DNA from: Rhodanobacter fulvus Jip2
GTDB taxonomy: Bacteria > Pseudomonadota > Gammaproteobacteria > Xanthomonadales > Rhodanobacteraceae
Assembly (NCBI RefSeq): GCF_000264315.1
Contig: NZ_AJXU01000014.1
Coordinates: forward strand, 1 to 64,000
Reading direction: 5' to 3'
DNA: 64,000 nt
Shown: positions 1 to 59,921 of the stretch, in pieces
How the letters are laid out: each line of letters begins with the position of its first letter
How positions within the stretch are numbered: the first letter of the stretch is position 1
Notes under the pieces: model-generated
What the model was told of the DNA's origin: nothing
What the model saw: only the letters and a program-made list of their open reading frames with translations
Database searches by the model: none
Program-made: the position numbers and the translations under genes

Positions 1-20
1 AATCCCGAATCCCCAATCCC
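1..20. repeat. GGGATTN heptamer array, cut by the window edge
   Basis: On the minus strand this reads as consecutive GGGATTG/GGGATTC units. It belongs to the same family as the arrays at 45796, 49294, 50637 and 58927. It lies in frame within the 3' end of nadE. Confidence 0.7.
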
Positions 21-43794: not shown

Positions 43795-45027
43795 TCAGAA
43801 ATTCCTGGTGAACCAGTTGCGCCATTTGCCGACCAGGCCGCCCACGCTGCCGCCCATCGGGTGACTGACGCGGGCCCCGCCGGCGCGCGAGCCGTGCAGC
43901 AGCAGGCCCACGCCGGTGGCGTGCAGCGGGCTGGAGACGACTTCGCCCAGGCCGCTGATTTCCTGCGGCACGCCGATGCGCACCATCATGTGGAAGATCT
44001 CCTCGGCCAGTTCCAGCGCGCCTTCCATCTTCGAGGCGCCGCCGGTCAGCACCACGCCGGCGGCCACCAGGTTCTCGTAGCCGGAGCGGCGCAGCTGGTC
44101 CTGCACCATCTCGAAGATTTCCTCGTAGCGGGCCTGCACGCTCTGCGCCAGGGATTGCCGCGCCAGCCGGCGCGGCGGACGGTCGCCCACGCTGGGCACC
44201 TGGATGGTTTCGTCGGCGTGCGCCAGGCCGGCCAGCGCGCAGGCGTACTTGATCTTGATTTCCTCGGCGTGCGCGGTCGGCGTGTGCACGCCCTGGGCGA
44301 TGTCGCCGGTGACGTTGTCGCCGCCCACCGGCAATGAGGCGGTGAAGCGGATCGAGCCGTGGGTGTAGATGGCGATGTCGGTGGTACCCGCGCCGATATC
44401 GACCAGGCACACGCCCAACTCGCGCTCGTCGTCGGTGAGCACGGATTTGGCGCTGGCCAGCGCCGAGGGCACCAGCTCGTCCACCGACAGCCCGCAGCGC
44501 TGGATGCACTTGGTGATGTTCTGCACCGCGGCGGCCGCGCCGGTGACCAGGTGCACGTTCGCCTCCAGCCGCACGCCGCTCATGCCCACCGGCGAGCGGA
44601 TGCCGTCCTGGCCGTCGATGCGGTATTCCTGCGACTCCTTGTAGAGCACCTTGCGGTCGGCGGGGATCGCCACCGCACTGGCCGCTTCCAGCACCTGCTC
44701 CAGGTCGCCCACGGTCACCTCGCGGTCGCGGATGGCCGCGTTGCCGTGCGAGTTGCGGGTTTCCAGGTGGCTGCCGGAGATGGAGGCGTAGACCGAGCGG
44801 ATATCGCAGCCGGCCATCAGCTCGGCCTCCTCCACCGCGCGCTGGATCGAGTGCACGGTGGATTCGATGTCGACCACCGACCCGCGCTTCATGCCGCGCG
44901 ACACGTGGGTGCCGATGCCGATCACGGTGATCGGCTCGCCGATTTCGTATTCGCCGACGATCGCCACCACTTTCGAGGTGCCGATATCGAGCCCGACGAC
45001 GAGTTGCTTGTCGTTGCGTGGTTTCAT
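43795..45027 (-). CDS. ftsA: Cell division protein FtsA
   Basis: Actin-like protein that anchors FtsZ to the membrane. The 410-residue sequence has VGLDIGTSKVVAIVGE (phosphate 1), VCLVDIGAGTTDIAIYTHGSI (phosphate 2), VVLTGGASKMEGALELAEEI (adenosine), and the C-terminal amphipathic membrane helix VGKWRNWFTRNF. Its ATG overlaps the ftsQ stop by 4 nt. Confidence 0.97.
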   Translation of the reverse strand: MKPRNDKQLVVGLDIGTSKVVAIVGEYEIGEPITVIGIGTHVSRGMKRGSVVDIESTVHSIQRAVEEAELMAGCDIRSVYASISGSHLETRNSHGNAAIRDREVTVGDLEQVLEAASAVAIPADRKVLYKESQEYRIDGQDGIRSPVGMSGVRLEANVHLVTGAAAAVQNITKCIQRCGLSVDELVPSALASAKSVLTDDERELGVCLVDIGAGTTDIAIYTHGSIRFTASLPVGGDNVTGDIAQGVHTPTAHAEEIKIKYACALAGLAHADETIQVPSVGDRPPRRLARQSLAQSVQARYEEIFEMVQDQLRRSGYENLVAAGVVLTGGASKMEGALELAEEIFHMMVRIGVPQEISGLGEVVSSPLHATGVGLLLHGSRAGGARVSHPMGGSVGGLVGKWRNWFTRNF

Positions 45028-45773
45028 GAGGAAATGTTCATGGTGGGGGGCGAACCTCCAGCGTTGGCGGGGGCCGCTTGCGGCCAGCGCACGGCGAATC
45101 CATTGGTGTAACGAAGATCGGCGTAGGCAAACGGCTCGGTATGGCCGGCCATCAGTTGCGGGTAGACATCGAGGAAACGGCGCAAGCGGCGGCCAGCCTG
45201 TTCGCGGTCGCCGATCACGATGCGCGCGCCGGCGGCGGTGCTTACGCTCCAGCTGCCGCGCTCGCTCAACGCCACGCCGTTGATGCGCAGCCCGCTGCCG
45301 GCGAAGGCTTTCTGGGTTTGCGCGTAGAAGCTGACCACTTCGGCCAGCCGATCGTCCGGGCCTTGCAGATGCGGCAACGCGACGAGGTCACCCGCACCGG
45401 GCGCATCGAACACCAGGCCCTGGCGGCTGATCAGCCGCTTGTCGTTCCAGCGCGCGAACGGCTGGCGCTCGTAGATGCGCAGCGACAAGGTATCGGGCCA
45501 GCGCTTGCGCGCTTCCACCGACTCCACCCACGGCAGCGCGGCGACGGCCTTCTGCACGTTGTCCAGGTTCAGCGCGAAAAACCCGCGGCCGATGCCAGGC
45601 AATACCGCGGCGCGCACTTCCGCCGGCGTCACGTGCTTGAACTCCGCCTGCACGGTCAAATGGTTCACCGGCCACCGCGCGGCCGCAAACCAGCCGCGCA
45701 ACACGCCCACGATGGGCAGCGCCACCAGGGCGATGGCCAGGCACCAGGCGATCAGGCGGACGGAGCTTTTCAC
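45024..45773 (-). CDS. ftsQ: Cell division protein FtsQ
   Basis: Bitopic divisome protein linking early and late division proteins. The 249-residue protein has a short N-terminus, one transmembrane helix (about 8-28), the POTRA domain (about 35-105; [19 protein letters not shown]) and the beta domain (about 108-240; [25 protein letters not shown]). The start is GTG 45773, overlapping the ddlB stop by 4 nt; the frame is open far upstream only because it runs through ddlB in another frame. Confidence 0.93.
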
Positions 45774-46786
45774 TGGGCGCCTCCGTTGGAGTCGCGGGAT
45801 TTGGGATTCGGGATTCGGGATTCGGAAGAGCCGGCGGCGTGGGGTCCGAAGCTCGTTTCCAGCACGCGCCAGCACAATTCCTGGTAATCGATACCGGCGG
45901 CGGCGGCGGCTTTGGGTACCAGCGAGTGGGAGGTCATGCCGGGGGCGGTGTTCACTTCCAGCAGCCAGTTGCGGCCCTGGCGATCGCGCATCACGTCGAC
46001 GCGGCCCCAGCCGTTGCAGCCCAGCGCATCGAAGGCCTGCAACGCCAGCGCGCGCAGCGACGCTTCGGCCTCGCCTTCCAGGCCCGGGCACAGGTACTGG
46101 GTGTCTTCGGCCACGTACTTGGCGTTGAAATCGTAGAACTGCGCCTTCGGCACGATGTGGATGCTGGGCAGCACGTCGCGACCCAGGATGCTGACGGTCA
46201 GCTCGGCGCCTTCGATCAGTGTTTCCATCAACAGATCGCCGGGATACTGCGTCGCCAACTGCACCGCCTGATCCAGCTGCGAGGCATCGAACACGCGGCT
46301 CACGCCCACGCTGGAACCCTCGCAGGCCGGCTTCACGATCAGCGGAAAGCCGATCGCCTGCGCCGCGGCCTGCACGTCGGCGCCGCGCGGCAGCGGCATG
46401 AACGCCGGCGTGGGCAGGCCCTGCGACTGCCACACCCGCTTCGAGCGTGTCTTGTCCATCGACAACGCGGAACCCAGCACGCCCGAGCCGGTGTACGGCA
46501 CGTTCGAGGCTTCCAGTGCGCCCTGCAGCACGCCGTCCTCACCGCCGCCGTGCTGGCCGTGCAGGATGTTGAACACGCGGGCGAACCGGCCGACCCGCAG
46601 CGCGTCCAGCAAGGCGGGAATGCCGTCGACGGCATGCGCATCGACGCCGCGCGCCTGCAGCGCAGCCAGTACGTTGCGGCCGGAATCCAGCGACACGCTG
46701 CGCTCGGTGGAGCTGCCGCCCATCACCACGGCCACGCGGCCGAAGTCGGCGGGGTTGTCGATGCGATGGCGTTGCGTGGCGCTCAT
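45770..46786 (-). CDS. ddlB: D-alanine-D-alanine ligase
   Basis: ATP-grasp enzyme giving the D-Ala-D-Ala dipeptide for MurF. The 338-residue protein has [19 protein letters not shown], the ATP-binding [19 protein letters not shown] and [20 protein letters not shown]. The normal end (VLETSF) is followed by about 20 residues, of which [13 protein letters not shown] is encoded by a GGGATTN heptamer array (45796-45825). Start and stop overlap murC and ftsQ by 4 nt each. Confidence 0.96.
45796..45825. repeat. GGGATTN heptamer array inside ddlB
   Basis: Four head-to-tail units, GGGATTT then three GGGATTC, and a final GG. It lies in frame within the last codons of ddlB. No opposite arm is seen nearby. 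Confidence 0.9.
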
Positions 46787-48222
46787 TTGCGTGTCCTCAG
46801 CTCACCGGCCCGCCCCAGCTCGACCGCCACCGCGCCGATATCGCCGGCGCCCATAAGCAGCAGCAGGTCGCCATCGCGCAGCAGCGCCGGCAAGGTGTCG
46901 GCGAACTCGCGCGGGTGATCGACCAGCACTGGATCGACCTTTCCGCGCGCACGTACCGCACGCGCCAGCGCACGGCCATCCGCACCGGCGATCGGTGCTT
47001 CGCCGGCGGCGTAGACATCGGTCAGCACCAGCACGTCGACCTCGGCCAGCACGTTGGCGAAATCGTCCAGCAGGTCGCGCGTACGGCTGTAGCGATGCGG
47101 CTGGAAACCCACCACCAGCCGCCGCTCGGGCCAGCCGCCGCGCACCGCGGCGAACACCGCCGCCAGTTCGCTGGGGTGATGGCCGTAATCGTCCACCAGC
47201 AGGACCGAACCCTGATCGAGCGCGATCTCGCCACGCCGATGGAAGCGCCGGCCCACACCCTGGAACTTGCTCAGCGCGTGCGCGATGGCTTCCGCCTCGA
47301 CCCCCAACTGCCAGCCGATCGCCGCCGCCGCCAACGCGTTCAGCACGTTGTGGCGCCCGGGCAGGTTCAGCATCACCGGCAAGGCTTCGTCGCGACCCGG
47401 CAGGTGCAGGTTGAAATGCATCTCGAAGCCACTCTGGCGCAGCGCGCTGGCGCGCACGTCGGCGTCCTGCGATTCGATGCCGTAGGTCATCACCCGGCGG
47501 GTGGTGCGGCCGGCCAGCTCGCGCACTTCGGCGTCGTCCACGCACAGCACGGCCAACCCGTAGAACGGCAGCCGATGCAGAAAATCGGCAAACGCCTTCT
47601 TCACCAGGGCGAAATCGCCGCCGTAGTTTTCCAGGTGGTCGGCGTCGATATTGGTGACCGCCGCGATGATCGGCGACAGCAGCAGGAACGAGCCATCGGA
47701 CTCGTCGGCCTCGGCCACCAGGTACTGGCCAGTGCCCAGCCGCGCGTTGGCGCCGGCCGCGTTCAACTGGCCGCCGATCACGAAGGTGGGATCGTAGCCG
47801 GCCTCGGCCAGCACGCTGGCGGTGAGGCTGGTGGTGGTGGTCTTGCCGTGGGTGCCGGCGATGGCCACGCCACGGCGGAAACGCATCAGCTCGCCCAGCA
47901 TTTCCGCGCGCGGCACCAGCGGGATGCGCGCCTCGCGGGCGGCCAGCAATTCGGGGTTGTCCTGCGGGATCGCGCTGGAAGTGACCACCACGTCGGCGTC
48001 ACCGAGGTTGCTCGCCGCATGACCGATGTGCACCGTGATGCCCATGCCTTGCAGCCGCAGCGCGGTAGGCGACGGGTTGCGATCGGAGCCGGACACGGCG
48101 TAGCCCAGGTTGTGCAGCACCTCGGCAATGCCGCTCATGCCCACACCACCGATGCCGATGAAGTGCACCCGGCGGAAGGTGCTCATCAAATCCTCGTTGG
48201 CGGAGAGCCGGCGCGGGGTCAT
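46783..48222 (-). CDS. murC: UDP-N-acetylmuramate-L-alanine ligase
   Basis: Adds the first amino acid of the peptidoglycan stem peptide. The 479-residue protein has [23 protein letters not shown] (UDP binding), the ATP loop [12 protein letters not shown] (122-133), EADESDGSF and DDYGHHPSE. The start ATG 48222 gives a 4-nt overlap with the murG stop and an N-terminus [21 protein letters not shown]; the internal ATG 48186 (MSTFRRVHF) is nearer to the usual start and is possible. Confidence 0.96.
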
Positions 48223-49391
48223 GCCGCCACCTCCAGGCAGGCGCGGGCGATGGCCGCGGCCGCGTCGGGTTTGGCCAGCGTGCGGGCGGATTCGGCCATC
48301 GCCAGCAAGCGGCTGCGGTCGCCAAGTAGCGCAGCGAGCTGCTGCGCCAGAAGTTCTACGTTCAAGCTGTTCCCTTTCAGATCGGATTCCGGCAGCAACA
48401 CGGCGGCGCCGGCCTGCACCAGTACGTCGGCATTGCGGGTCTGGTGGTCGTCCACCGCGTGCGGAAACGGCACCAGCACCGAACCCAGCCCGGCCGCCGA
48501 CAGTTCGGCCAGAGTCAGCGCGCCGGCGCGGCAAACCGCCAGATCGGCCCAGGCGTAACTGGCCGCCATGTCTTCGATGAATGGCACCACCTGCGCGCGG
48601 ATGCCGGCCTCGGCATAGGCCGCATTGGTCTCGTCGATGCCGCGCGCGCCACATTGGTGCAGCACGTCGGGCCGCTGCGACGGGTCGAGTCGGGCCAGCG
48701 CCTGCGGCAGCGCCAGGTTCAATGCCCGCGCGCCCAGGCTGCCGCCCAGCACCAGCAACCGCGGCGCATCCCGGTGCTGCGCCATGCGCGCGGCGGGCGG
48801 CGGCAGTTGGGCGATCGCCTGGCGCACCGGGTTGCCCACCCATTCGGCCTGCGGCAGCGCATCGGCAAAACCGGTCAGCACGCGGCGAGCCATGCTGGCC
48901 AGTTTGCGATTGGTGAAGCCGGCCACGCGGTTCTGTTCGTGCACCAGCAACGGCCGCCGCAACAGCCACGCCGCCAAACCTCCGGGACCGGCCACGTAGC
49001 CGCCCATCGACAACACGCTGCGCGGCTGGATCCGCCGCAGCAACGCCAGCGAAGCGAACAAGGCCTGCAGCAGCATCGCCGGCGCCAGCAGGCGGGCCTT
49101 CCAGCCCTTGCCGCGCAGCCCGCGTACCGCCACCGTGTGCAGCGGGATGTTGTGGGCAGGAACCACACGGGTTTCCATACCGCCGGCTGCCCCCAGCCAC
49201 ATCACCGGCACGCCCTGCCCACGCAGCGTTTCCGCCACGGCCAGGCCCGGAAAAATGTGGCCGCCGGTGCCGCCGGCCATGATCAGCACGGGACGGGAAT
49301 CGGGAATGGGGAATGGGGAATCGGTAAAAGCCGGGCGCGGCGCGTCTTGGCCATTCCCGATTCCCGATTGCCGATTCCCGTAGATACTCAT
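48219..49391 (-). CDS. murG: UDP-GlcNAc:lipid I transferase MurG with repeat-encoded N-terminal insert
   Basis: Adds GlcNAc to lipid I, forming lipid II on the inner membrane face. The core is complete: [54 protein letters not shown] and [32 protein letters not shown]. The start ATG 49391 overlaps the ftsW stop by 4 nt, as elsewhere in this cluster. Between MSIYG and the conserved core lie about 30 residues ([14 protein letters not shown]...[10 protein letters not shown]) encoded entirely by a GGGAATN inverted-repeat element (49294-49380). An internal ATG at MAGGTGG is not a plausible start because it removes part of the first strand. Total 390 residues. Confidence 0.95.
49294..49380. repeat. 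Paired GGGAATN heptamer arrays (inverted) inside murG
   Basis: Left arm 49294-49324 has four GGGAAT units; right arm 49353-49380 has the complementary ATTCCCG pattern; the spacer is 28 nt. The arms can pair into a long hairpin, and each has four G-tracts on one strand. The whole element is in frame at the 5' end of murG. Confidence 0.9.
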
Positions 49392-50620
49392 GCCGCCACC
49401 TGCTCGCGCGGAACCGCCGCGGCATTCGCATCGACGGCGGTCACCGCCGCCGGCATCCGGGTGGCCATGTGCCGAGCATCCAGCGCGCGGTTGATCTCGA
49501 ACGTGGCGCGCAGCAGTACGCCGGCCATGGCGCAGGTCAGCACCATCGAGGAGCCGCCGTAGCTGATCAGCGGCAAGGTCAGGCCCTTGGTCGGCAACGC
49601 GCCGAGGTTCACGCCCACCGACACGATCGCCTGCATCGCCAGCATCAGCGAGGTGCCGAACGCCACGTAGCCGGCGAAGCGCTGGCCGACTTCCACGCCC
49701 TTGAGGCCCAGATAAAGTCCACGCCCCACCGCCAATGCAAACAGGCCGATCACCAGCGCCACGCCGGCCAGGCCCAGCTCCTCGCCGATCACCGCGAAGA
49801 TGAAATCGGTATGCGCCTCGGGCAGGTACGACAGCTTCAGCACGCTGGAACCCAGGCCCACGCCGGTCCACTCGCCGCGACCGATCGCCATCAGCGACTG
49901 GGTCAGCTGGAAGCCGTCGTTGAACGGGTCCTTCCACGGATCCATGAACGAGGTCAGGCGCTTCATGCGGTAGCTCTCGCCAGTGGCCGCGATGTACAGC
50001 AGCGGCATCAGCGGCAGCCCCATCAGGAACAGGAAGATCGGCCGCGCGCCGCCCAGCCAGACCATCGCGATGGTCACCGCGATCACCAGCGTGGCCGAGC
50101 CGAAATCCGGTTGCGCCAGCAGCAGCAGCACGATCAGCCCCGCCACCACCACCGGCTTGAACAGGCCCAGGAAGCGCGTTTCCACATTCTCGCGGTGACG
50201 CACCAGATAGCTGGCGATGTACACCACCAGGATCAGCTTCACCGCTTCCACCGGCTGGAACGTGGTCACCAGCAGGTTCAGCCAGCGCCGCGCGCCATTG
50301 ATGCGCATGCCCAGGTGCGGCACGAACACCGCCAGCAGCAAGACGAACGCCAGCGCCAGCAGCGGAAACGCGAATTTCTCCAGCAGCTTCATCTCGGTGC
50401 GCATGGCCACGCCCGCCGCCAGCAGCCCCAGACTGAGAAACACCAGATGCCGCTTCAGGTAATAGAACGCCCCCAGGTGCTGGCTGTCGGCCACCGAGAT
50501 CGAACTGGACGCCACCATCACCACGCCGATGCTGGCCAGCGCAACCAGCGCAATCAGCAACAGCAGATCGAAGCTGCCGCGCGGGCCGTGTCGCCGTTTT
50601 GCCTGGGTGGTGTCAAACAT
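49388..50620 (-). CDS. ftsW: Peptidoglycan glycosyltransferase FtsW
   Basis: SEDS-family lipid II polymerase of the division septum. The 410-residue protein has about ten transmembrane segments. Signature stretches include [58 protein letters not shown] and [20 protein letters not shown]. The start [15 protein letters not shown] is preceded by GGAGCAGG; the 22 additional codons open upstream come from the repeat element. It follows mraY after 126 nt, where murD would be expected. Confidence 0.95.
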
Positions 50621-50636
50621 GGGCCTGCTCCGCAAG

Positions 50637-50743
50637 CCGGGAATGGGGAATAGGGAATGGGGAATAGGTACAAGCACGCACGACACTACGCACCGGCGCG
50701 CACGTGCCGTTCCGATTCCCCATTCCCGATTCCCTATTCCCGG
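50637..50743. repeat. Paired GGGAATN heptamer arrays (inverted) between mraY and ftsW
   Basis: Left arm 50637-50668 contains GGGAAT units separated by G, A, G, A; right arm 50712-50743 is its near reverse complement; the spacer is 43 nt. It fills almost the entire gap between the mraY stop and the ftsW start. It could act as a hairpin or a G-quadruplex in the mRNA or DNA. Confidence 0.9.
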
Positions 50744-50746
50744 CCA

Positions 50747-51847
50747 TCACCGCACCTTCAACGTGGCAAGGCCGATCAGCACCAGCACTACCGAGATGAT
50801 CCAGAAGCGCACGATCACCCGCGGCTCCGGCCAGCCTTTCAGTTCGAAGTGGTGATGGATCGGTGCCATGCGGAAGATGCGCTTGCCGGTGAGCTTGAAG
50901 CTGGCCACCTGCAACATCACCGACACCGTTTCCATCACGAACACGCCGCCCATCACCAGCAGCACGATTTCCTGGCGCACGATCACCGCCACGCAACCCA
51001 GCGCCGCGCCCATCGCCAGCGCGCCCACGTCGCCCATGAACACCTGCGCGGGGTACGTGTTGAACCACAGGAAGCCCAGCCCCGCGCCCGACAGCGCGCC
51101 GGTGAAGATCGCCAGCTCGCCTGCGCCGGGGATGGACGGAATGCCCAGGTATTCGGAGAACACCTTGTTGCCGGCCAGGTAGGCGAACACGCCCAGCGCG
51201 CCGGACACCAGCACCGTCGGCATCACGGCCAGGCCATCCAGGCCGTCGGTGAGGTTCACCGCGTTGGAGAAGCCCACCATCATGAAATACGCCACCACCA
51301 CGAAGAACAGCCCCATCGGCAGCACCACGTGCTTGAACAGCGGCACGTACAACGCGGTCTCCGCCACCGGCAGCGCGCCGGTCGCGTGGGGTGCGGTGTA
51401 GTACAGGAACAGCGCGGCGCCGAGGCCGAAGACGGACTGCCAGAAATACTTCCAGCGGCTGGCCAGCCCGCGGCTGTCCTTCAGCACCAGCTTGCGGTAG
51501 TCGTCGTAGAACCCGATCACGCCGAAGGTCAGCATCACCGCCAGCACCACCCACACGTAGCGGTTGCGCAGGTCGGCCCACAGCAGCGTGGCGACGCTCA
51601 CCGACAGCAGGATCATCACCCCGCCCATGGTCGGCGTGCCGGCCTTGACCAGGTGCGTCTGCGGACCGTCGCTGCGCACCACCTGGCCGGCCTTCAGCGC
51701 GCTCAGCTTGCGGATCAACGCCGGACCCAGCAGCAGCGACACCGCCAGCGCGGTGAGCGCGGCCATGATCGTGCGGAAGGTGATGTACTGGAAAAGATGC
51801 GGCGCCACGAAGTGGCGCGACATCCATTCGGCCAATTCATACAACAT
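50747..51847 (-). CDS. mraY: Phospho-N-acetylmuramoyl-pentapeptide-transferase
   Basis: Makes lipid I at the inner membrane. The 366-residue protein has about ten transmembrane helices and the Asp-rich motifs: [16 protein letters not shown] (DD), [13 protein letters not shown] and [19 protein letters not shown], and the His motif [12 protein letters not shown]. Its start overlaps the murF end by 11 nt. Its stop lies 4 nt from the repeat element at 50637-50743. Confidence 0.97.
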
Positions 51848-53219
51848 CGGACGTGCCCTCCTGCGCCGGGCCGGGTGCGCCCGGAGGCTGCCCCAGCGCC
51901 ACCACCACCTGTTCCATGCCGGCCGAGCGCGAACCCTTCACCAGACAGGTGACGCCCGGATGCAATTGCGAGCGCAGCGCCGCGATCAGCGCGGGCTTGT
52001 CGATGAAATGCGTCGCACCGTCGCCGAACGCCTCGACCGTGGCCGCGCCCAGCGGGCCGACCGCGAACAGCCGCTCCACGCCGCGCTCGCGCGCACGTTG
52101 CCCGACCGAGGCGTGCAGGGCGCGCGCATCGGCGCCCAGTTCCGCCATGTCGCCCAGCACCAGCCAGCGCTCGCCCCCGGCCAGCAGCAGCGTGTCGATC
52201 GCTGCCCGCATCGAGCTGGGGTTGGCGTTGTAGCTGTCGTCGATCACGGTCCAGCCGCCGGACGTCAGCTCGCGGCGAAGCCGGCCGGGCACGCCCTCGG
52301 CCGTCTGCAGCCCCGCCACGATGGTGGCCAGCGGCACCTCCAGCGCCAGCGCGATGGCACTGGCGGCCAGCGCATTGGCGATGTTGTGGCGACCGGGCAG
52401 CGGCAGCGAAACCTCGGCCTCGCCAGCCGGCGTCTGCAGCACGAAACGCGACCCGTCCGGGCGCTGCTCCAGGATCCGGGCGCTCACGTCGGCCGCATGA
52501 TCCAGCCCGAAATGCAGCAGCTTGCGACCACCGGCCAGGCCGTCGAAGAAGCTGGCGAAGGCATCGTCGGCATTGACGATCGCCACGCCATCGGCGGGCA
52601 GGGCCTGATACAGCGCGCCCTTGGTTTCGGCCACGCCTTCGATGCTGCCCATGCGCTCCAGATGCGCCGGCGCGATCAGGTTGACCACGCCGACATCGGG
52701 CCGCGCGATGGCCGCCAGGTAGGCGATGTCGCCCGGCTTGCCGGCGCCCATTTCCAGCACGGCGAACTGGGTGTCGAGCGGCATCGCCAGCAGGCTCAGC
52801 GGCAGCCCCAGTTCGTTGTTGTAATTACCCGCGCTGACATGAGTGCGGCCATGCCGTGACAGGATCGAGGCGGTCAGCGTCTTGACGGTGGTCTTGCCGT
52901 TGGAACCGGTGATACCCACCACCCGCACGTCGCGCTGCGCCCGCACGGCACTGGCCAGGTCGCCCAGGGCCAGTGCGCTGTCGTCGACCACGATTTGCGG
53001 CAGATCATGCTCCAGCTTGTGCGTCACCATGGCGGCCACGGCGCCGCGGGCGGCTGCGTCGGCCAGGTAGTCATGGCCATCGACGCGATCGCCCTTGATC
53101 GCCACAAACAGGTCGCCGGGCTTCACCCGGCGCGTGTCGATGACCACGCCGGTGACTTTGGCATCGGCGCCGTGCAGGCGGCCGTGGGTCCACATGGCGA
53201 TGGTGCTCGCGGACATCAT
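51837..53219 (-). CDS. murF: UDP-MurNAc-tripeptide-D-alanyl-D-alanine ligase
   Basis: Adds D-Ala-D-Ala to the stem tripeptide. The 460-residue protein has the N-terminal UDP domain ([28 protein letters not shown]), the ATP loop [24 protein letters not shown] and [17 protein letters not shown]. It overlaps murE by 4 nt (ATGA) at the start and mraY by 11 nt at the end. Confidence 0.97.
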
Positions 53220-54727
53220 GCGTGCGGCTCCCGGCGTTCCAGCGCGGCTCGCGCCACGGCCATGTCGTCGAAGGGATGCTTGCCGCTGGCGTCTTCCTGG
53301 TAGGGCTCGTGGCCCTTGCCGGCGATCAGCACCACGTCGCCGGCGTGCGCGTCGCGCAGCGCGAGAGCGATGGCCGCGGCCCGGTCGCGTTCGATCGTCG
53401 TGCCCTCAGGCATGCCGGCCACGATCTGCGCCACGATGGCGTCGCCGTTTTCGCCGCGCGGGTTGTCGTCGGTGACGATGGCCACGTCGGCCAGCCGTGC
53501 CGCGATCTCGCCCATCAGCGGACGCTTGCCGGCATCGCGCTCGCCGCCGCAGCCGAACACGCAGATCAGGCGGCCGGCGCAATGCGCGCGCAGCGCGGTC
53601 AACGCCTGCTCCAGCGCGTCGGGAGTGTGCGAATAATCCACCACCACCAGCGGCAGATCGCCCTGCCCGCCGAGGCGGCTCATGCGGCCGGGCACCGGCT
53701 GCAGGTTTTCGAGTGCAGCGACGATGCGCTCGAACGGCTCACCCAGCGCACCGAGGCAACCGGCCACCGTGAGCAGGTTCGCCACGTTGAAACGGCCCAG
53801 CAGCGGACTCTTGACGGGCGCGGCACCCCACGGCGTGCGCAGCTCGAAACTGAGCCCGTTGGACGAGGTGACGATGGCGCTGGCGGCGACATCGGCGTCC
53901 GCATTGTCGGCCATGCTGGTACGCAGCGGCTGCACGGCGCCATCAAGCCGCGCCAGCAGTTCGGGACCGAACGCATCGTCGAGATTGATCACGGCGGCGC
54001 GCAGGCTGGGCCACGCAAACAACAAGGCCTTGGCCGCGCCGTACGACGCCATGTCGCCGTGGTAGTCCAGATGGTCGCGGGTCAGGTTGGTGAAGGCGGC
54101 CACGTCGAAATCCACCGCGGCCACGCGATGCTGCGCCAGCGCGTGCGAGGACACTTCCATCGCCACATGGCTTACGCCCGCGTCGCGGAATTCCGCCAGC
54201 AGCCGATGCACGGCCACCGCATCGGGCGTGGTGCGCTCGCCCTCGTGCAATTGCCCGTGCACGCCGGCGCCGAGCGTGCCGATGGTGGCGCTGCGATGGC
54301 CGAGAAAACTCAGCGCCTGCGCCAGCATCTGCACGCACGACGTCTTGCCATTGGTACCGGTGACGCCCACCACGCGCATCGCTTCGCTGGCGCGCTCGTA
54401 GAAGCGCGCGGCGATCTCGCCGACCTGCGAGGCGAGGTTGTCGATCCACACCACCGGCACGCCTTCGATCACCTGCGAAGAGGTGCCGATGTCGGCCGGT
54501 ACCGGTGCCTCGGCCAGCACCACCGAGGCGCCGCGCTGCGCGGCGACGGGGGCGAAGCGGATGCCATGCGTCTGCGTGCCGCGCAAGGCGACGAAGGCGT
54601 CGCCGCGCACGATCTGGCGCGAGTCGATGGCGAGCCCGGCGATCGAAAGCTCACGGGCGCCGGCTACTTGCGCCAGCGCCGCATCGCCAATGCCCAGCAG
54701 CAGGCGGTCGAGACGATGCACGGTCAT
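53216..54727 (-). CDS. murE: UDP-MurNAc-L-alanyl-glutamate:meso-diaminopimelate ligase
   Basis: Adds the third residue of the stem peptide. The 503-residue protein has the ATP loop GVTGTNGKTSCVQ (120-133), MEVSSHALAQHRV and TRDHLDYHGDM. DNPR at 421-424 marks the meso-diaminopimelate-specific group, so the wall is of the DAP type. It overlaps ftsI and murF by 4 nt at each end. Confidence 0.97.
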   Translation of the reverse strand: MTVHRLDRLLLGIGDAALAQVAGARELSIAGLAIDSRQIVRGDAFVALRGTQTHGIRFAPVAAQRGASVVLAEAPVPADIGTSSQVIEGVPVVWIDNLASQVGEIAARFYERASEAMRVVGVTGTNGKTSCVQMLAQALSFLGHRSATIGTLGAGVHGQLHEGERTTPDAVAVHRLLAEFRDAGVSHVAMEVSSHALAQHRVAAVDFDVAAFTNLTRDHLDYHGDMASYGAAKALLFAWPSLRAAVINLDDAFGPELLARLDGAVQPLRTSMADNADADVAASAIVTSSNGLSFELRTPWGAAPVKSPLLGRFNVANLLTVAGCLGALGEPFERIVAALENLQPVPGRMSRLGGQGDLPLVVVDYSHTPDALEQALTALRAHCAGRLICVFGCGGERDAGKRPLMGEIAARLADVAIVTDDNPRGENGDAIVAQIVAGMPEGTTIERDRAAAIALALRDAHAGDVVLIAGKGHEPYQEDASGKHPFDDMAVARAALERREPHA

Positions 54728-56535
54728 GGCGCGCCCTCGTCGATGGGTGCGTCATCGATCGGCGCATCGACCGGTGGGTTGCTGCCGGCCAGGCCACCGG
54801 TGCCCTGCAGCGGGCCGCCCACATACCAGCGCCCCACATTATCCGGCGGCACATCCAGCAGCCGTAATGCGCCTTCCATCACCTTGGCGAACACCGGCGC
54901 GGACACCATGCCGCCGTAGTAGCTGCGCTTCTGCGGGTTGTCGATCACCACCACGCCGACCAGCCGCGGGTTCGACGCGGGCACGATGCCGGCGAACGCG
55001 GCGGTGTAGTTGCTCTTGGAGTAGCCGCCGGCGTTGGCCTTGTGCGCCGTGCCCGTCTTGCCCGCCACGCTGTAATTGGGGATGCGTGCCTGCGGCGCCG
55101 TGCTGCCCGGCCCTGTCACCGTCTCCATCATGCGCACCAGCTCGTGCGCCACTTTCGGCGAGATGATCTGCTTGGTGGGACCGTCGTTGTCCTTGATGAA
55201 CGCGGGCGTGTGCATCAGCCCGCCGTCGGCGATGGTGGCGTAGGCGTTGGCCAGCTGCAGCACGGTCACGTTGAGCCCGTAGCCGTAACCGAGGATGGCC
55301 TTTTCCAACGGCCGCCAGTCACGGCCGATGCGCAGCAAGCCGGAGGCTTCGCCGGGAAAGCCGCTCTCGGTGCTGTTGCCGAAACCGAAGCCGCGATAGG
55401 TGTCGTACATCAACGTGGTATCCAGCGACATCGCGATGCGCGCCGCGCCCACGTTGCTGGATTTGGTGATGACGCCGGTGGGCGTCAACAAGCCATAGTT
55501 GTGCGTGTCGTGAATGTCGTGGCCCTGGAAATACCAGTGCCCACCGGTGGTGTCGATGATCGGCGTCGTGGGCGTGTACTGGCCGCTGGACAGCGCCGCC
55601 GCCATCAGGATCGGCTTGATCGTCGAACCGGGTTCGAGCAGGTCGGTCATCGCGCGGTTGCGCCGCTGGCCCGGCTTGCTGTCGTTGACCGCGTTGGGGT
55701 TGTAGGACGGCAGGTTGACCATCGCCAGCACTTCGCCGTTGCGCGCGTCGAGTACCACCATCGAGCCGGAGTCGGCCTCGAATTTCTCCAGCGCGTTCTT
55801 CAGCTCGTTGAAGGCGAGGAACTGGATGCGCCGGTCGATGCTCAGCGTGAGACTCTGCCCCGGCTTGGGCGCGCGCACCTGCTCCACGTCTTCCACCACG
55901 TGGCCCATGCGGTCGCGGATCACGCGCTTGGCGCCGGGCTTGCCCGAGAGCCAGTCGTCGTACGCCAGCTCCAGCCCTTCCTGGCCGTGATCGTCGATAT
56001 TGGTGAAGCCGAGCACGTGCGCGGTCAGCTCGCCCGACGGGTAATAGCGCTTGAACTCGCGCTGGCCATTGATGCCCGGGATGCCCAGATCCAGCACGGC
56101 CTGCGCCGCTTCCGGTGCCATCTGCCGGCGCAGGTACACGAACTCGCGCTCGGAGCGCTGTGCCAGCTTGTTTTTCAGCTCGGCGGCATCGACGCCCAGC
56201 GCCCGCGCCAGCGCGGGAATGCGCTCTTCATTGGCCAGCACTTCCGGCGGATTGGCCCAGATCGAGGTGACCGGCGTGGATACCGCCAGCGGCGCGCCGT
56301 TGCGATCGAAAATGGTGCCGCGCGACACCGGGATCGGCATTTCGCGCAGGAAGCGGGCGTCGCCCTGACGCTGGTAGAACGCCTTGCGCACCACCTGCAG
56401 GTCGAACGCGCGCGCCACCAGCCCCAGCCCGCTGAGGCTCAGCAGGCCCACCACGATCAGCATGCGCTTGCGTGCGCTGGGGCCGGCCGCGTGGCGGCGG
56501 CCTTGCGGTGCGGCAATGTGATTGCGCCAGCCCAT
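54724..56535 (-). CDS. ftsI: Division-specific transpeptidase FtsI (PBP3)
   Basis: Cross-links septal peptidoglycan with FtsW. The 603-residue class B penicillin-binding protein has one N-terminal transmembrane helix (about 24-42), the pedestal domain with SRGTIFDRNGAPLA, and the transpeptidase motifs Ser304-Thr-Ile-Lys (EPGSTIKPI), Ser-Ser-Asn (359-361) and Lys-Thr-Gly-Thr (493-496). A proline/aspartate-rich tail ends the protein. The start [14 protein letters not shown] shares one base with the ftsL stop (TGATG). Confidence 0.96.
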   Translation of the reverse strand: MGWRNHIAAPQGRRHAAGPSARKRMLIVVGLLSLSGLGLVARAFDLQVVRKAFYQRQGDARFLREMPIPVSRGTIFDRNGAPLAVSTPVTSIWANPPEVLANEERIPALARALGVDAAELKNKLAQRSEREFVYLRRQMAPEAAQAVLDLGIPGINGQREFKRYYPSGELTAHVLGFTNIDDHGQEGLELAYDDWLSGKPGAKRVIRDRMGHVVEDVEQVRAPKPGQSLTLSIDRRIQFLAFNELKNALEKFEADSGSMVVLDARNGEVLAMVNLPSYNPNAVNDSKPGQRRNRAMTDLLEPGSTIKPILMAAALSSGQYTPTTPIIDTTGGHWYFQGHDIHDTHNYGLLTPTGVITKSSNVGAARIAMSLDTTLMYDTYRGFGFGNSTESGFPGEASGLLRIGRDWRPLEKAILGYGYGLNVTVLQLANAYATIADGGLMHTPAFIKDNDGPTKQIISPKVAHELVRMMETVTGPGSTAPQARIPNYSVAGKTGTAHKANAGGYSKSNYTAAFAGIVPASNPRLVGVVVIDNPQKRSYYGGMVSAPVFAKVMEGALRLLDVPPDNVGRWYVGGPLQGTGGLAGSNPPVDAPIDDAPIDEGAP

Positions 56536-56804
56536 CAGCGCAGCAACCTGACATCTTGCGGACGCGGATCGACCATGCCGAGCTTCTCCCGCGCCTCGGC
56601 ATTGATGCGGCTGGGGTCGGCCTTGGTCGCCTGCTCCAGCTCCAGCTTGCCGAACTCGATGTTCAGCTCGTCGCGCTGGTTTTGCAGCGCCGTGAGGCTG
56701 ACGAACAGCACGCGGCTTTCGTGACGCGTCCACACCACGCCCAACGCGCTGGCCAGCACGGCAACCAGCAACAGCAGGGTGGCGATGGCGCCGACAGCCT
56801 TCAT
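56535..56804 (-). CDS. ftsL: Cell division protein FtsL
   Basis: An 89-residue bitopic divisome protein. One transmembrane helix (about 4-25) is followed by a leucine-zipper-like coiled coil ([39 protein letters not shown]). It acts with FtsB and FtsQ to control FtsWI. The position between rsmH and ftsI and the length are typical; it overlaps rsmH by 4 nt. Confidence 0.93.
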
Positions 56805-57739
56805 GCGCCTTCCTCCGCCAGCTTTTCGGCCACGCGCAGCACCGCCGAACGCGAACGCGGGTTGGCCGACAACTCTTCTGCCGAGGGGAACTGCGCCTTG
56901 CCCACCGCCGTCAGGCGTGCGGGCGCGGCCTGCACCGGCGGGCCGCGGCGGGAGTTCTGCACGCGACCGGACTGGTCGCGGATGAACTGCTTGACCGCGC
57001 GATCCTCCAGCGAATGGAAGCTGATCACCGACAGACGTCCGCCCGGATTGAGCCGCGACAGCGCGGCATCGAGCCCGTCGTGCAACGCATCAAGCTCGCC
57101 GTTGACGCGGATGCGCAGCGCCTGGAACGTGCGCGTGGCCGGATGCTTGCCCGGCTCGCGCCGACCCACCACGCGTTCGCACAACGCCGCCAGCTGGCCG
57201 GTGCGGGTGAACGGCGTGGCGTCGCGATCGGCCACGATGGCACGGGCGATGCGCCGGCCGTGGCGCTCCTCGCCGAAATTCCACAGCACATCCATGATCT
57301 CGCGCTCGCTGGCGTGGGCCAGGAATTCGGCCGCGCTTTCGCCGCAGCTGGTGTCCATGCGCATGTCCAGCGGGGCATCCGCCATGAAACTGAAACCGCG
57401 CGCGGCCTCGTCCAGCTGCGGCGAAGACACGCCCAGGTCGAGCAGCACGCCATCGAGCCCGGCGGCGGTTTCGTCCCACTCGGCCAGGCTGGAGAAGTTG
57501 GCGTGGCGGATGGACACGCGCGGATCGGCGGCGAACTCGGCCTGCGCCGCGGCGATCGCCTGCGGGTCACGATCCATCAACAGCAGCCGACCGTCGGGGC
57601 CCAGGCGCGACAGCACGGCGCGGGCGTGACCGCCGCGTCCAAAGGTTCCGTCGAGATAACGCCCGTCAGAACGCACGGACAGACCCTCCACCGCTTCGCC
57701 CAGCATCACCGGGATGTGCCGCAAAACTCGCTCGGCCAT
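56801..57739 (-). CDS. rsmH: 16S rRNA (cytosine-1402-N4)-methyltransferase
   Basis: Methylates C1402 of 16S rRNA. The 312-residue protein has [13 protein letters not shown], the SAM motif [46 protein letters not shown] and [16 protein letters not shown]. It is the second gene of the dcw cluster, 42 nt after mraZ. Confidence 0.97.
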
Positions 57740-57781
57740 GCCGCACTCCCGCCCTCATCCCACGTGTGTTGCCGCGCCCGC

Positions 57782-58228
57782 TTACAGGCGCAGTTCGGCC
57801 ATTTCGTCTGTGATGTCGTCCTCGCCGATCGTCTGGCGGGTTGTCTTGAGGTGCTCCTGTTCGCTCCACAACTCGAACTTGTCGCCCATGCCCAGCAGCA
57901 CCGCCTTTTTCTCGATGCCGGTGGTGGTGCGCTGACTGGCGGGCAGCAGGATGCGTCCGGCGCCATCCGGTTCGACCACGGCCGCCGCACCCACCAGCTT
58001 GCGTTGCAGGTTGCGGTGCTGGGCCCGGACGCTGGGGAGCGCATTGACCGAGTCGCGCACGCGCTCCCATTCGGCATACGGGAACAGCCACAGGCAGCCT
58101 TCATCGAACGGGTTGTAGGTGATCACCAGACGGTTGCCACACTCGCCCGCCACCTGTTCCCGATACGCGGTCGGAATGGCCAGGCGGCCCTTGTCGTCGA
58201 CGGTGATGGCGGTCTCGCCCTGGAACAC
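57782..58228 (-). CDS. mraZ: Transcriptional regulator MraZ
   Basis: DNA-binding protein that represses the dcw operon. The 148-residue protein has two SpoVT/AbrB-like modules: about 3-50 ([23 protein letters not shown]) and about 75-125 ([20 protein letters not shown]). The second carries the conserved DxxGRxxLP. The start is GTG 58228 (GTGTTCCAGGGCGAG); GGAG lies 10 nt upstream. It very likely binds the box cluster at 58239-58273. Confidence 0.95.
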
Positions 58229-58238
58229 GGTGTCAGAA

Positions 58239-58273
58239 CTCCACTAAAACCCACGATTTCACACAGGAACCCA
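58239..58273 (-). promoter_or_regulatory. MraZ operator: four boxes at 10-nt spacing
   Basis: Reading toward mraZ on the minus strand, the boxes are TGGGT (58269-58273), TGTGA (58259-58263), TGGGT (58249-58253) and TGGAG (58239-58243), each exactly 10 nt apart. TGGGN repeats at 10-nt spacing are the known MraZ target. The first box touches the -10 hexamer, so binding would block RNA polymerase; the last could also serve as the mraZ Shine-Dalgarno. Confidence 0.85.
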
Positions 58274-58301
58274 CGATAGTCTCGCCCTATGAGACTGTCA
58301 A
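58273..58301 (-). promoter_or_regulatory. Sigma70 promoter of the dcw cluster (PmraZ)
   Basis: Perfect -35 TTGACA (58296-58301), 17-nt spacer, and -10 TATCGT (58273-58278) on the minus strand. The spacer holds a GTCTCATAGGGCGAGAC dyad. It drives mraZ and the overlapping genes behind it. Confidence 0.85.
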
Positions 58302-58493
58302 GGGAATTTCGCTTGTGAATCAAGGAGTAAAGGCAGAATGCTGACCGCACATGCAGGACTTTGTGAGCTATACCGGCAAGGTGGTTGAATGCAGGGAGTT
58401 TTCTTATCAGGAGTCGCCACCCCTTTCGGGCCGAATCGGCGCCGTTGCGGGGTTTCCCGGGGGATCGGGGATGAATCGGCGTTCACACAACAA

Positions 58494-58525
58494 GCCGCCG
58501 GCGCGTGAACCCACGCACCGGCGGC
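58494..58525 (-). terminator. Terminator of rnpB
   Basis: A 14-bp stem with one mismatch (GCCGCCGG...CCGGCGGC) and a 4-nt loop, followed on the minus strand by TTGTTGTG. It lies shortly past the rnpB 3' end. Confidence 0.65.
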
Positions 58526-58541
58526 CTATCGGGTAAAAGAG

Positions 58542-58912
<371 letters not shown>

Positions 58913-58926
58913 GCCAGTGTAGCTGG

Positions 58927-59009
58927 CCGGGAGTAGGGAATGGGGAATGGGGAATAGGAAGAGCGGCGGCGCGGCTTTTCCGACTCCCTATTCCCTATTC
59001 CCCATTCCC
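58927..59009. repeat. Paired GGGAATN heptamer arrays (inverted) between rnpB and rsmI
   Basis: Left arm 58927-58958, right arm 58980-59009, spacer 21 nt. The right arm supplies the last codons and the TAG stop of rsmI; the left arm ends 15 nt upstream of the rnpB 5' region, occupying the place of its -35 element. Confidence 0.9.
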
Positions 59010-59837
59010 TGACTCCTGGTACAGCAGCTTGCGCGGTGCACCGCTGATCGCCGCCGCCAATTTCGCCGCTTTCGCCGGCGGCAGTTCCTCGCGCAGGATG
59101 GCAAAAATGCGCCGTCCCTCGGCCAGCTTCGCGTCCGCTTCCTCGCCGCGACCGGCCACCACGATCACATGCTCGCCACGCTGCTGGTCGGGGTCGGTGG
59201 CGACGTGCGCGGCCAGTTCCGCCAGCGGCTCGCCCAGCACGGTCTCGAACATCTTGGTCAGTTCGCGCGCCAGCACCGCCTCGCGCTCGGCACCAAACAC
59301 GTCGCGCATGTCGGCCAGGCTCTCGGCCACGCGATGCGACGATTCATAGAAGATGAGCGTGCGCGTCTCGCTCGCCAGTTCCTGCAAACGACTGCGCCGT
59401 GCGGCGGCTTTCGATGGCAGGAAACCCTCGAACACGAACCGGTCACTGGGCAGGCCCGCCACCGACAACGCCGCGATGGCCGCGCACGCACCCGGCACCG
59501 GAATGCAGCGGATGCCGGCCGCCCGCGCCGCGCGCACCAGCCTGAAACCGGGGTCGCTGATCAACGGTGTGCCTGCGTCGGAAATCAGCGCGACGGATTC
59601 TCCGCCCTGCATCCGCTGCACGATGGCATCCACCACCTCGCGCTCGTTGTGCTCATGCAAGGCCACCAGTGGCGTCGCCACATTGTGGTGTTGCAGCAGC
59701 GGCCGGCTGTGGCGGGTGTCTTCGGCCGCGATCACCGCCACCGCGCGCAAGGTCTCGATGGCGCGGGCGGACAAATCATCGCGATGGCCGATCGGGGTGG
59801 CCACCACCCACAGGCATGCGGGTTGAATTGCTGACAT
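58995..59837 (-). CDS. rsmI: 16S rRNA (cytidine-1402-2'-O)-methyltransferase
   Basis: Methylates the ribose of C1402, the same nucleotide modified by RsmH. The 280-residue protein has LWVVATPIGHRDDLSARAIETL, EDTRHSRPLL, ALISDAGTPLISDPGFRLV and FYESSHRVAESLADM. The start MSAIQPACL follows GGAG. The last residues (QESGNGE) and the stop codon are encoded by the adjoining GGGAATN repeat. It is divergent from lpoA. Confidence 0.96.
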   Translation of the reverse strand: MSAIQPACLWVVATPIGHRDDLSARAIETLRAVAVIAAEDTRHSRPLLQHHNVATPLVALHEHNEREVVDAIVQRMQGGESVALISDAGTPLISDPGFRLVRAARAAGIRCIPVPGACAAIAALSVAGLPSDRFVFEGFLPSKAAARRSRLQELASETRTLIFYESSHRVAESLADMRDVFGAEREAVLARELTKMFETVLGEPLAELAAHVATDPDQQRGEHVIVVAGRGEEADAKLAEGRRIFAILREELPPAKAAKLAAAISGAPRKLLYQESGNGE

Positions 59838-59921
59838 CGGGGAAGCTCCTGCGCCGTGGGTCGCGCGAATACGATCGGCTATGATCGCGCATTGCCGACC
59901 ATGACGAACAAGGGACCTCCC

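Follow-up and report, generated by a model that had tools for sequence, protein, structure and literature searches.

Heptamer repeat elements lodged at gene junctions of the Rhodanobacter fulvus dcw operon lie in open frames and look translated

The stretch of DNA analysed here (the window) comprises 64,000 nucleotides of Rhodanobacter fulvus Jip2 (NCBI RefSeq assembly GCF_000264315.1, contig NZ_AJXU01000014.1, positions 1 to 64,000) and contains genes of the division and cell wall (dcw) operon, among which lie palindromic elements made of tandem heptamers (heptads). Genes were named from family models: mraY, ftsW, murG, murC, the D-Ala-D-Ala ligase gene (ddlB) and rsmI scored above the curated cut-off; ftsQ was the sole family-model match for its gene, yet under its cut-off. 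We refer to the junctions mraY–ftsW, ftsW–murG, ddlB–ftsQ, rsmI–rnpB and murC–ddlB as sites A, B, C, D and E, respectively. Three paired elements (A, B and D), with four heptads per arm, were found where a sequence-only reading of the window had placed them, and the window contained 19 two-unit matches against 0.03 expected by chance. The design described in that reading (four heptads, a spacer and an inverted copy) stood; the detector gave spacers of 47, 29 and 25 nt for elements A, B and D, respectively, compared with 21–43 nt in the reading.

Element A (50639..50741; arms 50639-50666 and 50714-50741) separates mraY from ftsW in the list of open reading frames (ORFs). A small ORF of 44 codons, also present in that list as an ORF ending at 50613, runs through it on the minus strand (50613..50747), with an ATG overlapping the stop of mraY (TGATG) and a TGA overlapping the ftsW start (ATGTTTGA). 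A hairpin, GGCTTGC-GGA-GCAGGCC(C), at 50621..50638 (minus strand) encloses the presumed ftsW ribosome-binding site. Element B (49295..49379; arms 49295-49322 and 49352-49379) falls in the N-terminal coding sequence of murG (48219..49391, minus strand), after the start codon, which overlaps the ftsW stop (ATGA). The N-terminal extension of MurG is largely encoded by this element, and the murG family model spans residues 32-384 of 390. Element C (45796..45823), a single array of four GGGATTN units that is C-rich on the sense strand, falls in the C-terminal coding sequence of ddlB (45770..46786, minus strand), near the stop; this gene carries a C-terminal extension, and its TGA end overlaps the GTG start of ftsQ. 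The best D-Ala-D-Ala ligase model spans residues 13-312 of the 338 residues of DdlB. The element-borne ends of MurG and DdlB are placed outside the protein families because the family models leave these extensions uncovered. A second hairpin, GCGaCTCC-AAC-GGAGgCGC (45777..45795, minus strand), encloses the presumed ftsQ ribosome-binding site.

A scan for FtsW in relatives gave 80 loci, of which 71 (L009–L079) were used together with the window, and L080–L088 (39–42% identical) were left out. Within this set, Rhodanobacter sp. Root480 was nearest to the window, with 95% identity over mraY, ftsW and murG. Site A was occupied in 15 of the 71 measurable loci, and the distance from the mraY stop to the ftsW ATG took 11 different values among these alleles (111–171 nt), all divisible by three (in L029, the match begins 9 nt after the ftsW ATG). 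In all 15, the small ORF had no interruption between the mraY stop and its own TGA or TAA, which overlaps the ftsW start; its ATG overlapped the mraY stop in 14, and in L069 the first ATG lies two codons further on. A 21-nt deletion scar at site A of L038 also keeps the small-ORF arrangement. At site B, the distance from the ftsW stop to the murG motif was 2 mod 3 in all 71 measurable loci, the murG start overlapping the ftsW stop as ATG in 69 and GTG in 2, and the 13 long forms (insert >60 nt) were open. Site E likewise measured 2 mod 3 in 62/62 loci, and in each of the six loci with arrays there, the array is part of a DdlB N-terminus that is in frame and begins at a TGATG overlap. At site C, where 19 of the 69 measurable loci had a long form (>48 nt), every one of the 69, long forms included, had its ddlB stop in an RTGA that overlaps the presumed start of ftsQ. 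On the untranslated side of site D, which served as a control, the lengths of 16 array-bearing regions were 0, 1 and 2 mod 3 in 7, 6 and 3 cases, respectively. A seventh-base A that would make an in-frame TAG occurred at none of 15 stop-phase positions versus 10 of 35 others (sites A and B pooled, p = 0.022; site C was left out, as the test would be circular there). Unit number did not shift the frame at site A, as it would in a phase-variable simple repeat, since the lengths were divisible by three in 15/15. These numbers argue for selection keeping ribosomes moving through the elements, and it is the length rule together with the start/stop overlaps that carries the case for their apparent translation.

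The elements could instead be transcript ends or RNase III sites, that is, 3′-end hairpins whose placement in the dcw operon would be incidental. Several arrays of the window genome start, by eye, a few bases past a stop codon, and the hairpins at sites A and D are strong: folding compared with shuffles gave z = −7.2 for element A and z = −9.4 for element D (58929..59009; arms 58929-58956 and 58982-59009). The rsmI stop codon lies inside the right-hand arm of element D, and rnpB (58542-58908, minus strand; Rfam RF00010) comes next. Yet an open frame runs through the elements at A, B, C and E, which a processing or termination site would not require, and we regard this explanation as unlikely. 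An Rfam scan of positions 45000-60500 returned rnpB alone above the gathering score.

Most occupied alleles contain a short hairpin around GGAG directly before the ftsW start (site A) or the presumed ftsQ start (site C). The first hairpin type was analysed in ten sequences, namely nine of the 15 site-A alleles, picked for the type, and L111 of the window genome; six of its seven pairs showed changes on both sides, and its covariation was 0.375 compared with 0.155 after shuffling, a value reached in 0/500 shuffles. In the second type, represented by 16 distinct sequences (two from site A and 14 that together cover all site-C forms but L056, 18 of 19), 92.9% of cells were paired, again reached in 0/500 shuffles. 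The site-A alleles L017, L029, L032 and L072 are in neither set. That the hairpin enclosing the downstream ribosome-binding site covaries is suggestive of translational coupling.

Folding was scored at z < −2 with 60 shuffles per sequence and compared with the presence of G-quadruplex (G4) motifs. G4 capacity had been put forward in the sequence-only reading. All 15 alleles at site A folded, versus a G4 motif on the sense strand in 8/15 (12/15 on either strand), and G4 capacity did not hold up as a conserved property. At site B, 7 of 13 alleles folded and 7 of 13 carried a motif on either strand; the corresponding numbers at site C, where many copies have one classifiable arm, were 6 and 13 of 19. 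At site D, 22 of 31 regions folded and 6 had a motif; 8 of the 31 are AGTGAGN arrays, and 16 hold a classifiable array. A structural switch, in which the G-rich arm would form a G4 in DNA or nascent RNA, alternate with the hairpin and thereby regulate the operon, could draw on several observations. The window arms match G3+N1-7, four units are favoured (41/59 arrays), the motif occurs in 13 of the 19 long site-C forms, and such repeats have been reported to form G4s in vitro, as seen by circular dichroism (PMC4692102). Moreover, 6 of 25 single arrays in the window genome are flanked, by eye, by two inverted copies of repetitive extragenic palindromic (REP) sequences, and in the loop between them a G4 could form without competition from a stem; two more lie at contig ends beside one REP. 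The excess of hairpins over motifs at sites A and D speaks against the switch, as do the GTGAACN and AGTGAGN arms, which lack GGG but keep the design and matched arms, and we consider it improbable. By sequence comparison the G-tract is not the conserved part, because the arms of relatives change class, including to classes without GGG, with the design kept; what is retained at these junctions is the hairpin design, the matched arms and the reading frame.

The fewest state changes on a 70-row tree were 12 at site A (15/70 occupied), 10 at site B (13/70) and 12 at site C (18/67), in counts that do not separate gain from loss. Averaged over 11 independent pairs differing in A, changes in the same and in the opposite direction numbered 4.9 and 0.0 for site C (median p = 0.0625) and 4.3 and 0.2 for site B (median p = 0.125). 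The linkage of occupancy between sites A, B and C is suggestive only. Near relatives can differ at several sites together, as in L021, which has elements at A, B and C, and L022, which has none; their genome-wide counts are 51 and 4. Such four-unit counts, available for 50 of the 71 genomes, had a median of 48 in genomes with a long form at A, B or C (n = 23) versus 1 in those without (n = 27; p = 1.7e-6). There are exceptions, in that L079 has 112 matches with empty sites, and L059 and L065 have 2 and 0 matches despite a long form. Note that the reversed-pattern control was above zero in some relatives (23 versus 128 matches in L024, 16 versus 112 in L079). The heptad class is patchy in the order, because only 36 of 121 genomes match the four-unit pattern. 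One genome of the order, G064, outnumbered the rest by a wide margin, with 618 + 572 matches to four-unit GGGANNN (control, 116 + 131), which indicates a very large number of G-rich heptad-like repeats.

In the window genome, the heptad arrays form a dispersed family. The genome-wide search yielded 231 overlapping three-unit matches (117 forward and 114 reverse) and none with the reversed-pattern control. The window holds 11 of them, compared with 3.8 expected by length, an excess that is post hoc only. A census of the window and 26 further stretches (304 kb in total), the stretches having been picked for holding matches, contained 59 arrays of at least three units, of which 41 had exactly four. 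Array pairs were convergent in 17 cases, with 0 divergent and 0 same-strand neighbours within 250 nt, and by manual reading the unit class was the same in both arms of 16 of the 17 pairs (exception: L097 3342-3538). Among the arrays listed in the census, a following G(C/G/T)AARAGC is common. The two arms of element A showed, by eye, no position-by-position complementarity of seventh bases, nor did the spacers of the window genome point to cassette exchange, looking mutually unlike except for REPs (by eye only). Hexamer runs (AAAAGC, AAGAGC) adjoin heptad arrays at L096 after 3960 and L106 after 4026. Besides element C, the other single GGGATTN array noted before was also present, at 1..20 (minus strand), where it is truncated by the contig end, the window being contig C14 from base 1. 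Contigs C1 (at its end) and C2 (at its start) also break off within heptad arrays; repeat copies probably break the assembly of this genome.

Arms were classified by eight hand-chosen templates. The GGGAATN and GGGATTN units of the sequence-only reading were recovered, yet they are only two of eight classes assignable at these junctions in relatives (GGGAATN, GGGATTN, GGGACTN, GGGACCN, GGGAACN, GTGAACN, AGTGAGN and GGCGAGN). Both arms were of the same class in 40 of 41 elements with two classifiable arms (p = 1e-4, against a permutation mean of 11.1). Within one genome, sites A, B and C agreed in 18 of 27 comparisons versus 8.4 by permutation (29/45 with site D). Manual counts of overlapping rows gave GGGACTC in 94 of the 100 matches listed out of 171 in G001, GGGACC in 27 of 40 in G002 and GGGAAC in 52 of 63 in G003. 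AGTGAGN hairpins were found at site D in L010, L018, L023, L032, L039, L044, L045 and L065, several of them poor in GGGA heptads; in these eight, the hairpin lies directly before rnpB and supplies or abuts the rsmI stop. Genome-wide, AGTGANN matched in 13 of 50 genomes; its backward control is the identical pattern and hence uninformative. A four-unit RGTGANN search gave a small number of places in 3 of 6 genomes.

Comparison with Root480 covered 60 arrays, 25 of which had both flanks in the Root480 stretches; these were mostly picked for heptads, and the figure is no measure of empty-site frequency. In eight arms of the same class, 12 of 32 seventh bases differed versus 6 of 192 core bases (one arm, L099 4484, was aligned one register off, which adds core differences), and the flanks of compared arrays were ~5–8% different. 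The unit class itself differed at L095, L099 (1260 and 5974) and L103, in both arms where two exist, and by eye the three pairs had unrelated spacers; a further case may be L098 5909. At L099 1260, 4+4 units in the window genome correspond to one longer and one shorter arm in Root480. Site D of Root480 is without heptads, and its site B is partly deleted, in frame. At L100 4077-4111, five GGGAATC units stand opposite a single near-unit in the Root480 orthologue (L162), a possible seed for array growth. A GGCTCTCAACAGCCGAACGGCTGGTCATCCCG-type hairpin interrupts C-rich heptad arrays at the ddlB end of L021, at L174 and at L177, as if arrays were landing sites for another repeat.

Plain slippage of a 7-bp repeat, without function or constraint, would account for the quick turnover of seventh bases, for the five-unit array with its single near-unit counterpart and for arrays of 14 or more units, which do occur. 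Copy number varying between closely related strains had been named beforehand as a sign of slippage; at sites A and C, four units are present in both the window and Root480, kept while the units themselves turn over, whereas elsewhere copy number does vary (6 versus 5, 8 versus a rearranged array, and the 5 just mentioned). Slippage was already disfavoured, and with convergent pairs but no divergent or same-strand neighbours within 250 nt, lengths that preserve the frame and arms sharing their unit class, we think it quite unlikely.

The rapid genome-wide change of heptamer points to a spreading or homogenising process. One form of this would be a mobile palindrome resembling a miniature inverted-repeat transposable element, with a dedicated transposase, spreading in bursts, the unit class marking the subfamily last active in each genome. 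Consistent with such an element are the differing counts of the near relatives L021 and L022, the higher counts in genomes with occupied dcw sites, the leading unit class in each of G001, G002 and G003, the joint difference of class and spacer at the orthologous sites L095, L099 1260 and L103, and a nested copy in Root480 at the locus (L143) orthologous to L110. On the other side, many matches can coincide with empty dcw sites (L079) and the reverse (L059), and neither a target-site duplication was noticed nor an enzyme found, although no systematic search was made. The Y1_Tnp family, which includes the REP-associated tyrosine transposases (RAYTs), was rejected as the spreader: of 17 Y1_Tnp matches, 11 loci were examined (including all four in the window genome) and none had heptads within ~1.5 kb, and G003, G005 and G006, with 63, 68 and 86 heptad matches, had no match to PF01797 at E ≤ 0.001. 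We give a mobile element with its own transposase somewhat less than an even chance. One of the examined Y1_Tnp loci is flanked by REPs: in L138 (contig C58 of the window genome), a RAYT-like gene at 1150-1932 has inverted REPs of type TGTGGGAGCGRCTTCAGYCGCGATGC on both sides, the same ones that enclose some single heptad arrays. A more far-reaching idea is that each genome has a heptamer 'dialect' within a fixed hairpin design, that a trans-acting transposase or array-rewriting enzyme renews the copies, and that essential operons function only through translated frames; unit, both arms and spacer would then change together. We hold this only tentatively and find it rather doubtful.

We propose, with a probability of about 0.7, that the elements are dispersed palindromic repeats lodged at gene junctions, and that in the dcw operon they would be held in translated open frames that keep coupling. 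At the level of sequence, the comparisons establish the basis of this reading: open frames, frame-preserving lengths, start/stop overlaps, a covarying hairpin, matching arms and a species-specific unit. Each dcw copy lies in an open frame, as the mraY–ftsW small ORF, an N-terminal extension of MurG or a C-terminal extension of DdlB (N-terminal in relatives). On finishing the upstream gene, ribosomes would continue across the element and unfold its hairpin, then open the small hairpin hiding the next ribosome-binding site and re-initiate; the benefit would be an operon that stays translationally coupled, without a long exposed untranslated stretch. Untranslated gaps cause polarity, and the frame rule probably exists to avoid such a gap. 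Old copies may be replaced when new ones insert into heptad arms or when arms recombine with each other. Translation through the insertion, where arrival of a ribosome would uncover the following ribosome-binding site, suggests a route by which an essential operon could tolerate insertions.

Several points weigh against this proposal. The other two frames are open in many alleles too (3 and 9 of 15 at A, 0 and 8 of 13 at B, 14 and 12 of 19 at C), and since stops are rare in the common heptamers, an open frame taken by itself is weak evidence; site C is, in addition, defined by its own stop. The seventh-base test gave p = 0.062 at A alone and p = 0.54 at B alone. The long B forms L038 and L065 and the long C forms L041 and L056 have no classifiable array, and many B and C alleles fold no better than shuffles. 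In the second hairpin type, two pairs changed on both sides, a number reached by 46 of 500 shuffles, and the hairpin sequences were picked by type (the second type by eye), which favours pairing; 20–66% of cells pair in slid controls. The alleles share descent and the counts are not independent, though there are at least 10–12 state changes per site. As to how the copies spread, neither an enzyme nor a target duplication came to light, in a search that was not systematic.

In known cases of translational coupling, start and stop codons overlap and the ribosome-binding site is occluded. The dcw junctions resemble this in their TGATG and ATGWTTGA overlaps and in a presumed ribosome-binding site within a hairpin; unlike those cases, the leader here is a repeat element. 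REP sequences and their hairpin-forming doublets (REPINs), which are associated with RAYTs, are short high-copy palindromes in inverted pairs. The heptad elements share the inverted-pair palindromes and the high copy number, and REPs are interleaved with some arrays; in contrast, the heptad arrays lie away from the examined RAYT genes and persist where there is no Y1_Tnp match. Rickettsia palindromic elements are described as palindromes of ~150 bp in frame in protein genes, to which they add peptides (PMC10969869). By description, not by sequence, the repeats at sites B, C and E are similar in lying in frame in protein genes, being palindromic only where both arms remain, but they differ in their tandem-heptamer arms, their gene-junction sites and the bridging small ORF. 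For the TAACTGA heptamer repeats of Beggiatoaceae, a translational role has been suggested (PMC4679880). Among the papers listed in our searches of open-licence literature, none described heptamer elements with a frame kept open, or unit 'dialects'.

The closest known system is that of the GGGAATC/GGGNATC heptamer repeats of Xanthomonas (Rehm et al. 2015; PMC4692102). In the published account, these prefer four units, form 70 and 75 convergent pairs in two genomes, occur genome-wide near gene ends, vary between species in length and sequence within the same gene context, are 89% and 93% intergenic, and are presented without an identified role (PMC4692102). The sequence-only reading had pointed to similar intergenic arrays in Xanthomonadaceae, and the family is indeed known in Xanthomonas; the arrays of the window are not simply intergenic, as elements B and C are coding and an arm of element D holds the rsmI stop. 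The likeness extends to the unit, with (GGGANTN)n including at least one GGGAATC in elements A and B and GGGATTN only in C, to the four-unit preference, to the 17 convergent and 0 divergent pairs, and to the genome-wide spread, the position close to gene ends and the variation in the same gene context (PMC4692102). What sets the present elements apart is that they lie in open frames in an essential operon, B and C within coding frames, with hairpins at the next ribosome-binding site, and that the unit is replaced by other heptamers, including ones without GGG. The repeat class is already in print, together with the preference for four units and the convergent pairing (PMC4692102); it is new that the operon copies look translated. 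For a repeat family previously discussed as largely intergenic G4 DNA (PMC4692102), the comparison separates what is kept, namely the hairpin, the matched arms and the frame, from what is not, namely the G-tracts.

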